From the NCBI GenBank assembly GCA_947304185.1, contig CAMZAM010000005.1, positions 1 to 64,000 on the forward strand: 64,000 nucleotides of DNA, read 5' to 3'. The DNA comes from an uncultured Bacteroidales bacterium (GTDB taxonomy: Bacteria; Bacteroidota; Bacteroidia; Bacteroidales; F082). The position numbers were made by a program, and so were the translations under genes. The number at the start of each line of letters is the position of its first letter. The stretch's first letter is position 1. The notes beneath the pieces were generated by a model that searched no databases, was not told where the DNA came from, and was given only the letters and a program-made list of their open reading frames with translations. Of this stretch, positions 9,538-13,292 are shown one piece after another.

Positions 9538-9637
9538 CGCCCCGAAGGGGCAACGAGCCGTTAGCCCGGGGCAACGCCCTGGGAAATTGGGATGAATAAT
9601 CTCGAGGGAGAACGATGCGCCCCGAAGGGGCAACAGC
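9538..9637. repeat. REP-like palindromes left of the REP-associated transposase
   Basis: Two copies of a GC-rich hairpin word, GCCCC-GAA-GGGGC: 9538-9551 followed by CAACGAGCCGTTAGCCCGGGGCAACGCCCTGGG, and a shorter copy at 9619-9637 followed by CAACAGC. They are inverted relative to the copies at 10156-10278, placing the transposase gene between opposed REP sequences. The flanking bases 9481-9506 are a stutter of the word GGAGTGT. Confidence 0.8.
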
Positions 9638-9646
9638 ATAACATCA

Positions 9647-10102
9647 TCAATCGGAGAAAACATATTTTTCGTCATATTCGATATTATGCAACCGTAAAAA
9701 CTCCAAATATTCCTCCTGGACACTCTGTTTTCTATGATGTTCCTTCTGATTTTCGATATATCTCATCACCTTGTCAACCTGCGACTGGCTGACCGAAAAT
9801 GCCCCATAACCGCCCTGCCATGCGAAATTTTCATATATTGGCGAAATTGTTTTTATCCATCGGCTGCTATTCCGTTTCATTTCCTCAACGACATGAGCGA
9901 CCGTCTCCGTTCTTGAAAACATCAACAAAACATGAACATGGTTTTCGACTCCGCCGACGCGCAAAACATGGCAACCTGTTGTATTAACGAGTCCGCCGAT
10001 ATAACTATGCACTCGCTCCCAATGCTTCTCCTCTATTGTCGGGCCCGTATTCCTCACATGAAACACTATGTGTAAATAAATTTTGGATAATGATTGTGAC
10101 AT
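9647..10102 (-). CDS. REP-associated tyrosine transposase (Y1/IS200-like, TnpA-REP)
   Basis: A 151-residue single-domain HUH endonuclease of the Y1 transposase family. The HUH motif is ENHVHVLL (about residues 53-60), the N-terminal IYLHIVFHVRN strand is typical, and the catalytic tyrosine is expected in the helix VDKVMRYIENQKEHH (about residue 114), followed by LEFLRLHNIEYDEKYVF, the usual C-terminal ending of these proteins in Bacteroidota. Unlike IS200 it is a solitary gene bounded by REP palindromes in opposite orientation. Family members nick and rejoin REP hairpins and may spread them. A TATCTTTG -7 element at 10357-10364 could drive it, giving a leader that contains the right-hand REPs. 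Confidence 0.92.
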   Translation of the reverse strand: MSQSLSKIYLHIVFHVRNTGPTIEEKHWERVHSYIGGLVNTTGCHVLRVGGVENHVHVLLMFSRTETVAHVVEEMKRNSSRWIKTISPIYENFAWQGGYGAFSVSQSQVDKVMRYIENQKEHHRKQSVQEEYLEFLRLHNIEYDEKYVFSD

Positions 10103-10155
10103 AATTTTGATTTTTAATTTGTTATAAAATGTTGTTTATTATTTGTGTTCCCATT

Positions 10156-10278
10156 ACGCCCCAGGCGATGCCGTGGGGCTAACGGCTGTTGCCCCTTCGG
10201 GGCGGCCATTCCATCCCAAATACCGTTTGTTCATTTGGGGCGTTGCCCCTAGCTAACAGCTTATAGCCTTTCAGGCCG
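10156..10278. repeat. REP-like palindromes right of the transposase
   Basis: First unit 10156-10204: its reverse complement reads GCCCCGAAGGGGCAACAGCC then GTTAGCCCCACGGCATCGCC, the same module as the left side with a compensating change in the second hairpin. Second unit 10236-10276: GGGGCGTTGCCCC, GCTAACAGC and the hairpin GCCTTTCAGGC. The 310-base gap between the transposase and the 10413 gene holds these repeats and one -7 motif, and no supported gene. Confidence 0.8.
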
Positions 10279-10412
10279 AGAAATTGTCTCGGTTATCAAA
10301 AGGCTTCGTGTTTTGATTGTTAGTTCATTTGTCACAAAATATGTTTTAAATTTTGGCAAAGATACAAAAAAAAATGAAAAGCGAAAGGTTTATAATGAAG
10401 ATATGGTTACAT

Positions 10413-11527: not shown

Positions 11528-12055
11528 TTAAAACCCCATAAAACTATAATCACCATCGAATCCTTCTGGCATATCACCATATTGACCATCTGTTAAAGCG
11601 TCCCACGTATCATTTTCATAATCACACGACTCACAATTATTCTGCAAATAATACTTTCGACTTCCTCTTCTTGCAGGCAACGACGGATTTAAATCACAAA
11701 AATACACATCTCGTTCAACACCATTTTTCACAACTTTTGTTGAAAAACGATTTTTACCATAAAATTTCCAAATATTGTCATATTCAACAGGCAGGACTTC
11801 TTCACCTCTCTCATTGATAATTCCCCATTTTCGCAAATCATTTATTCTGCCATCCAAGGCGAAAGCTGCAACAACATTTGGAGAATAACCAATCCGAACC
11901 CGTGCCAATCCATGATCAAATCCATCAATCCATGCATATTTTCCAAATGGAACAATCACATTATCATTTATATCAACCACGCCATACTTACCATCATTTC
12001 TTTCCACAACTTTAATATTGTGAAATGGCTTTTCTTGTATATAATTGGTATTCAT
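11528..12055 (-). CDS. WG-repeat protein
   Basis: A 175-residue cytosolic protein with at least two WG (KWG-type) repeats: VVERNDGKYGVVDINDNVIVPFG near the N-terminus and RKWGIINERGEEVLPVEYDNIW at about residue 100. These repeats form beta-hairpin solenoids and occur widely in Bacteroidota, often beside toxin-immunity or signalling genes. The C-terminal third has a CESC pair (NNCESCDYEND) and no known fold. The ATG at 12055 is preferred to a TTG six codons upstream. It is the first gene after a promoter at 12342-12372 and a strongly folded leader element. Confidence 0.75.
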   Translation of the reverse strand: MNTNYIQEKPFHNIKVVERNDGKYGVVDINDNVIVPFGKYAWIDGFDHGLARVRIGYSPNVVAAFALDGRINDLRKWGIINERGEEVLPVEYDNIWKFYGKNRFSTKVVKNGVERDVYFCDLNPSLPARRGSRKYYLQNNCESCDYENDTWDALTDGQYGDMPEGFDGDYSFMGF

Positions 12056-12100
12056 ATCAACATTATTTAACAATTATTTTCTTTGGTTCGAATTATAAAA

Positions 12101-12264
12101 AGCGTGGAACTTACTCCTTGCTTGAACATCGGGTTACCACGCCCACTCCTCTAACAAGTTATTCCACGCCGTATCAAATACGGCATTTGTTAACTTATCC
12201 TTGAGGAGTTGTCCAATATGGACTATGTGGTAATTGATGTTCAAGGATAGCTACAAACGCTATC
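12101..12264 (-). other. large inverted-duplicate structured element in the WG gene leader
   Basis: The outer stem pairs CTTGAACATC (12121-12130) with GATGTTCAAG (12236-12245), then TTACCAC (12134-12140) with GTGGTAA (12227-12233) after a 3x2 internal loop. Inside, ACTCCTC (12145-12151) pairs with GAGGAGT (12203-12209) and AAGTTA (12156-12161) with TAACTT (12191-12196). The apex is GCCGTAT-CAA-ATACGGC (12168-12184). Side hairpins are GTCCA-ATA-TGGAC (12211-12223) and GATAGC-N7-GCTATC (12246-12264). The two halves also align as diverged copies from AGCG through AAGTTA. It lies between a minus-strand promoter and the WG gene, so it should be transcribed. It may be a regulatory RNA or a miniature inverted-repeat element. 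Confidence 0.7.
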
Positions 12265-12341
12265 TAATATGTAAGTTCTATCTGCTTTTTCTATTATTAC
12301 TTATACTTACTTTATTTTAATTAAACGATATTTTAACGATG

Positions 12342-12372
12342 CAAAGATAGCAAAATATAATTATGTTTCAAA
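12342..12372 (-). promoter_or_regulatory. promoter of the orphan three-gene unit
   Basis: On the minus strand TTTG (12369-12372) and TATCTTTG (12342-12349) are separated by 19 bases, a full match to the Bacteroidota vegetative consensus. The transcript would start near 12336 and run about 280 nt before the WG-repeat gene, passing through the folded element. Confidence 0.7.
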
Positions 12373-12590: not shown

Positions 12591-13292
12591 TCAATCAATT
12601 TCTTTATCCATTTTCTTTTCCTGATAGTTTTCCTTGGCAATTGCAATCGCTTTTTTAAATTTTTCAGCCAAAAGTTTCTTGTCGGGCAACTGGGTGTAAT
12701 ACTGTGCCACTTTTATCGGGCTGTTTTTGTCAAGCATAAGATACTCAATATGTTCGGTGTTTCCTTCCGAACACAAAATCAATCCAATTGGTGACTCCTC
12801 CCACTCTTTCCGCTCATTTTTATTAAGATACCTTAAATATAAAAGCATCTGCCCTTCGTATTCTGGTTTGAACTTACCAAGTTTCAAATCGATGGCAACT
12901 AATCGGCGAAGTTCACGATGGAAAAACAACAAATCTAGTTTATAATCAATAGAATCGACAGTTATACGTTTTTGCCGCGCCACAAAAGTAAAATCAGAAC
13001 CGAGAGTCCATGTTAATTGGGTACGCGCTGCGTACCGAATTTCATCTTCTGAAAAAGTCTCCGCGCTGCGGAGACAATGTCTCAACTTTTTCTCGCTCCA
13101 CCCTTGCCCATACTTTTCTTGCAACTTAATCGCAAGATTTTTAACGATTCGCTTGCCGATATACCAATTGGTCATGCAAACTTCGGCATTCATGTAGGTC
13201 GCAACACGGCGACGAACACCTTCAATTATTCCACATACATCTTTGTAAAGAGCCTCTTCTTGAGGCGCATTTTTTTGAACTATATTATCCAT
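12591..13292 (-). CDS. DUF1016 (YhcG-type) PDDEXK nuclease, internally deleted
   Basis: A 233-residue protein formed from both ends of the DUF1016 family. Residues about 1-95 match the N-terminal helical domain (MTNWYIGKRIVKN, GQGWSEKKLRHCLR, ARTQLTWT). The sequence then jumps directly to the nuclease core LGSDFTFVARQKRI, KLDLLFFHRELRRLVAIDLKLG and GQMLLYLRYLNKNERKEW, with the acidic and lysine residues of the PDDEXK site still present. Full-length relatives are about 330-370 residues, so roughly 100 residues between LTWT and LGSDF are missing without a frameshift. Relatives include Holliday-junction-like and mobile-element-associated nucleases. Whether the short form is active is unknown. 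Confidence 0.85.
   Translation of the reverse strand: MDNIVQKNAPQEEALYKDVCGIIEGVRRRVATYMNAEVCMTNWYIGKRIVKNLAIKLQEKYGQGWSEKKLRHCLRSAETFSEDEIRYAARTQLTWTLGSDFTFVARQKRITVDSIDYKLDLLFFHRELRRLVAIDLKLGKFKPEYEGQMLLYLRYLNKNERKEWEESPIGLILCSEGNTEHIEYLMLDKNSPIKVAQYYTQLPDKKLLAEKFKKAIAIAKENYQEKKMDKEID

Follow-up and report, generated by a model that had tools for sequence, protein, structure and literature searches.

The element described here lies on the minus strand of the window, by which the whole 64-kb stretch of DNA under analysis is meant, between a promoter match and a unit of three genes that opens with a WG-repeat protein gene (Table 1). The promoter, which an earlier note on this DNA had called a consensus promoter, is real as a consensus match. 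It fits the consensus reported for Bacteroides (PMC7366714), and the pattern TTTG-N19..21-TAnnTTTG has three matches on the minus strand of the window, 12372-12342 among them. Transcription would begin near 12336, and the leader would start with an A-rich part. An ATG is present where the WG-repeat gene had been proposed to start, approximately 40 nt past the U-run that ends the leader, and two genes without a Pfam match closely trail the WG-repeat gene. Upstream of the leader, and on its strand, is a gene for a YhcG/DUF1016-type PDDEXK nuclease (12591-13292); YhcG/DUF1016-related genes also precede three further copies of the leader (L041, L045 and L050). Elsewhere in the window a Y1 (IS200-like) transposase gene (9647-10102) has GC-rich palindromes as neighbours (near 9540-9630 and 10150-10290; cgccccgaaggggc), an arrangement that resembles a REP-associated transposase together with its REPs.

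Folding of 12095-12270 gives -67.1 kcal/mol on the minus strand; for dinucleotide shuffles the value is -37.2 +/- 3.4 kcal/mol, and none of 200 was as stable (z -8.7). The opposite strand has a fold z of -9.1, and the stretch predicted to be transcribed, from near 12336 down to the U-run, has one of -8.2. The folded element of the earlier note is therefore real and well outside what chance would give, with z about -9 on both strands and stems at the positions given there. Its outer stem of 10 + 7 bp corresponds to helices B1 and B2, and the apical hairpin and the two side hairpins (P0 and H4) are reproduced in the minus-strand fold. The inner stem, described as 7 + 6 bp, needs partial correction: the 7 bp (B3) are confirmed and the second part consists of 9 bp, not 6. 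The proposal that the two halves are diverged inverted copies does not stand, since "inverted duplicate" describes the paired arms only and nothing shows duplication. In the window a further stem (AAAAAGC/GCTTTTT, GAACTTAC/GTAAGTTC) closes the structure from outside; it shows no covariation across copies and is thus not part of the conserved RNA. Absent from the earlier note is a competing fold that ends in an intrinsic terminator, with its U-run at 12101-12093.

Table 1. Promoter, leader parts and genes of the window locus, in the order of transcription.
Feature	Position	Strand	Basis or remark
Promoter, TTTG-N19-TATCTTTG	12342..12372	minus	match to Bacteroidetes housekeeping consensus
A-rich 5′ part of leader, mostly unstructured, after predicted transcription start	12266..12336	minus	
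Hairpin P0 (GATAGC/GCTATC), side hairpin, state B	12246..12264	minus	fold
Helix A1, 5′ arm (AGCTATCCTTGA), state A	12241..12252	minus	covaries with 12193-12204
Helix B1, 5′ arm (CTTGAACATC), state B, overlaps A1	12236..12245	minus	fold and covariation; pairs with 12121-12130
Helix B2, 5′ arm (TTACCAC), state B	12227..12233	minus	pairs with 12134-12140
Side hairpin H4 (GTCC/GGAC), varies among copies	12211..12223	minus	fold
Helix B3, 5′ arm (ACTCCTC), state B, inner 7 bp	12203..12209	minus	pairs with 12145-12151
Helix A1, 3′ arm (TCAAGGATAAGT), state A	12193..12204	minus	covariation
Inner 9-bp stem	12199-12191 with 12161-12153	minus	fold
Apical hairpin (ATGCCGTAT/ATACGGCGT)	12166..12186	minus	fold
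Terminator hairpin, 5′ arm (GCGTGGAATAACTTGTT), state A; in state B its 3′ part serves as the H6 arm	12153..12169	minus	
Helix B3, 3′ arm (GAGGAGT), state B	12145..12151	minus	pairs with 12203-12209
Helix B2, 3′ arm (GTGGTAA), state B	12134..12140	minus	pairs with 12227-12233
Helix B1, 3′ arm (GATGTTCAAG), state B, overlaps terminator	12121..12130	minus	fold and covariation
Terminator hairpin, 3′ arm (AAGCAAGGAGTAAGTTCCACGC), state A	12102..12123	minus	
U-run of intrinsic terminator (TTTTTATAA)	12093..12101	minus	T-run conserved, all copies
WG-repeat protein gene, 175 aa, ATG 12055, first behind leader	11528..12055	minus	Pfam WG_beta_rep
Second gene of the unit, 134 aa	11101..11505	minus	no Pfam match
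Third gene of the unit, 238 aa	10413..11129	minus	no Pfam match

A leader family of gut Bacteroidales

The window element is one copy of a conserved structured mRNA leader family of approximately 170 nt that is common in gut Bacteroidales. The earlier note had named a lack of copies elsewhere as evidence against its proposal; many copies were found. The window's own genome has one. In a DNA search of 60 relatives, about 28 congeneric genomes and one from another family proved to have strong copies, with up to 13 per genome. From the relatives 65 copies were collected in three sets of loci, nearly all full length, and 60 of these were aligned. A covariance model of the family, R1, was used for genome scans. 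Within the window's genus it matched 75 of 99 genomes (38 of 46 among those of good quality), and across the order 43 of 295 Bacteroidales genomes. Across the phylum (296 genomes) the own genome and only one other were matched; the family is almost absent outside the Bacteroidales. Matches in other families keep the same layout with strongly changed sequence. Named records with copies are mostly rumen and gut Bacteroidales assemblies, such as "bacterium F082". Rfam 15 gave no credible match on the element, either at the gathering threshold in the window or at a permissive threshold in the relatives. Although it has well over a hundred copies in a single gut genus and members across the Bacteroidales, this structured RNA family seems not to have been described before.

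Strongly folded stretches with this layout also precede several HTH genes that are more distant, and R1 therefore probably covers a single branch of a larger group. At seven loci (L296, L303, L304, L305, L307, L311 and L312) folded leaders about 215 nt before an HTH gene share the layout and differ in sequence, with terminator arms such as GCGTGAAC/GTTCACGC, and these point to further subfamilies. Rfam matches are encountered behind two copies: an Rfam DUF805 RNA above threshold (L113:1393-1461, minus strand) is situated 40-108 nt behind one leader, and a borderline DUF805b match (L108:2703-2737, plus strand) about 1 kb behind another.

Two mutually exclusive folds

Two folds can be recognized in the aligned copies: state A, which consists of helix A1 and the terminator, and state B, a long rod. 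RNAalifold, when applied to the alignment, proposes helix A1 and the terminator, not the rod. In state B two-sided changes are seen at 22 of 47 pairs (238 cells, compared with 80 in shuffles) and the covariation score is 0.299 against 0.166 in shuffles; the corresponding values for state A are 13 of 36 pairs, 86 cells against 27, and 0.188 against 0.115. Neither score is reached by any of 500 shuffles. Sliding of the pairing partners abolishes the signal for both states, and swapping of arms between copies, which does not depend on the alignment, weakens the pairing of B1 (z -20.7), B3 (-16.0), B2 (-9.7) and A1 (-8.4). The sequence CUUGA is common to A1 and B1, and a 3′ CAAG is common to B1 and the terminator; hence the two folds exclude each other. 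The excess of G-U pairs over A-C mismatches (216:27 in state A, 298:98 in state B) indicates that the RNA is that of the gene strand.

The columns of the terminator stem are 99% paired and are followed by a conserved U-run. As the stem hardly varies within the genus, its covariation rests on the diverged copies, in which compensatory changes are found (for example GCGUGGG/CCCACGC and GCGUGGGUC/GGACUCACGC) and with which z reaches -4.5 for the far copies and -6.6 overall. The terminator of this leader was left unflagged by a simple terminator scan because its loop is large and internally structured. State B is computed to be about 11 kcal/mol more stable than state A, in 58 of 60 copies, so that no terminator would form at equilibrium and termination would need cotranscriptional trapping or a factor. 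Conservation reaches 90% or more in 72 columns, of which 64 are located in helices of state A or B, four make up the U-run and four are unpaired elsewhere; nearly all conserved bases being helical, no ligand pocket is evident.

Genes on either side of the leader

In each of the 64 analysed copies for which sequence downstream was available, the U-run is closely followed by an ORF on the same strand, these ORFs having been called mechanically and one of the 64 (L040) being a deletion remnant. In that remnant, some 43-150 nt behind the leader, the first codons of a zinc-ribbon gene are joined in frame to the last (MKALKCEM-WRKPLDKLV..). The distance from leader to ORF ranges from none to approximately 140 nt, and in one group the ATG stands directly at the U-run. 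On the other side, the Bacteroidetes -7 box occurs 0.47 times per copy at -100..-50, compared with about 0.05 elsewhere; a promoter box is found close upstream of 49 of 91 copies, the others being read from an upstream operon.

The genes behind the leader are diverse and encode small Cro/C1-type HTH proteins, zinc ribbons, TPR, BspA-type LRR and WG-repeat proteins, as well as proteins with a type IX secretion tail. Linkage of the leader to its genes is conserved, as it is kept before close homologues of the zinc-ribbon (10 of 10), P-loop (4 of 4) and HTH genes (12 of 12). One WG homologue (53% identity) is preceded by a much diverged leader at the corresponding position, and the other WG homologues have no detectable leader. 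The structured 5′ leader that the earlier note had offered as one of two readings is thus strongly supported by copies directly before same-strand genes, a promoter box at a fixed distance, covarying helices and retention before homologous genes, the diverged WG homologue included. Its view that the leader regulates three orphan genes is too narrow given the diversity downstream. A small Cro/C1-type HTH protein is encoded behind about 29 of the 64 copies and was considered as a universal partner; the window's own genome has nothing that truly matches the query HTH (E 0.375), and such a protein therefore cannot be required.

Genes before the leader are often parts of toxin-antitoxin modules. 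Among 42 scanned there are 14 HEPN, four DUF2442 and three DUF1016/YhcG genes, along with PIN, Fic, RelE and HicA, and diverged copies have genes for PIN-like proteins (named from sequence) 32-36 nt upstream. Conversely, ten genomes contain 34 HEPN genes, and for 14 of these a leader follows directly after the gene's end. The leader family may mark out a regulon in which accessory, secreted and small DNA-binding proteins stand next to toxin-antitoxin modules; little is known of RNA-based regulation in these bacteria. In blocks composed of MNT, HEPN and leader the edges remain constant while the gene behind changes. At one locus in two species (L058 and L061), which spans the leader and about 1.3-1.5 kb behind it, the flanks match on both sides and the cargo differs, a zinc ribbon against a secreted protein; such exchanges could have come about by recombination between leader copies. 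A palindromic repeat of approximately 82 nt (TGTAGGGCTGTCAC..GTACGACAGCCCTACA) is found about 1.3-1.7 kb behind the leader, after several cargo genes (L058, L061, L063, L033, L037, L057, L066 and L029). It was considered as a cassette end and is rather a REP-like palindrome. It is conceivable, though unlikely, that toxin-antitoxin operon, attenuator and variable cargo gene are read together as one exchangeable module gated by the leader, the cargo being turned on only when the RNA is flipped by the state of the cell, such as active toxin or stalled transcription.

Probable transcription attenuation and its alternatives

The element is likely an attenuator of transcription that acts in cis from the 5′ leader of the WG-repeat gene unit, a reading drawn from comparison of sequences. 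It is positioned in a leader, has an intrinsic terminator stem and U-run before the coding region, and possesses a covarying antiterminator that excludes the terminator, as an attenuator should. Helix A1 (CCUUGA with UCAAGG) could form first in the emerging RNA. Should A1 persist, the 3′ end would adopt the intrinsic terminator hairpin (GCGUGGAAU..GUUCCACGC) followed by the U-run, so that transcription would end ahead of the gene. Were A1 broken or never formed, the same CUUGA would pair with GAUGUUCAAG (B1, together with B2, B3 and H6), and the B1-B3 rod would remove the strands of the terminator so that the gene is read. Which fold is taken would depend on a signal; this would probably be a protein or the transcriptional state, not a small molecule in a conserved pocket. 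Both competing folds can be read from the sequence alone, which makes the family directly testable.

A metabolite riboswitch with an undiscovered ligand would use the same two folds, and the terminator/antiterminator layout and the many copies, a possible regulon, would suit it; such a switch is nevertheless unlikely, as the four unpaired columns outside the U-run reveal no conserved pocket and the downstream genes have no common pathway. The competing folds also resemble classical attenuators of amino-acid operons, but attenuation by a leader peptide can be practically dismissed, for 13 of 63 leaders contain an ATG frame of at least 5 codons where shuffles give 48 +/- 3.5, which means that ATG is avoided. 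The promoter box, the U-run end and the very stable rod of state B, the more stable fold, would also fit a free-standing small RNA of about 230 nt with its own promoter and terminator, acting in trans, with the gene behind as a bystander. That reading is quite unlikely in view of the constant same-strand gene close behind the U-run, the group with its ATG at the U-run, the linkage kept to particular gene families and the presence of up to 13 copies in one genome, each with different genes.

The other reading of the earlier note, a miniature inverted-repeat element, or other mobile DNA scattering between genes, has in its favour the many copies per genome beside differing genes, the sharp homology blocks with unrelated flanks and the cargo swappable at one locus. 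It is largely refuted and most improbable: target duplications are absent (shared word 5.43 against 5.35 shuffled), no terminal repeat covaries (z -0.7 to -1.6), the orientation before genes is fixed, and plasmid, phage and viral-contig collections hold no match to the family. The edges of the homology blocks, moreover, coincide with promoter and terminator, and competing covarying folds with a G-U bias are expected of RNA.

As a probable transcription attenuator the leader can be compared with several known systems. Attenuators and riboswitch platforms with intrinsic terminators are likewise found in 5′ leaders before a same-strand gene, with an antiterminator competing for the terminator strands; this leader differs in having no Rfam 15 match, no leader peptide and almost no conserved unpaired bases, and in its many copies (up to 13) per genome with unrelated genes behind them. 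Orphan RNA motifs of Bacteroidetes, listed by Weinberg 2010 (PMC2864571) and by Fremin and Bhatt 2021 (PMC8040213; 3161 uncharacterised candidates), are also structured and terminator-like, and some are near TPR genes, such as the palindromic 132-bp HMP2_4205 (PMC8040213). The leader family is apparently undescribed and may overlap with one of the 3161 candidates of Fremin and Bhatt (PMC8040213). Those orphan motifs that are curated in Rfam do not match it. NusG paralogues of the UpxY/RfaH/LoaP type act on leaders. By analogy, a trans-acting elongation factor as in that group (PMC12691694, PMC7593976) could likewise choose between stop and read-through. The targets of these paralogues are long capsule operons, whereas this leader precedes dispersed small genes. 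Integron cassette arrays carry folded attC sites between exchangeable genes. Here too a folded repeat is placed between exchangeable genes and toxin-antitoxin genes are common nearby; unlike attC, however, this leader has a conserved U-run terminator, a promoter at a fixed distance, a one-strand G-U bias and two competing folds.
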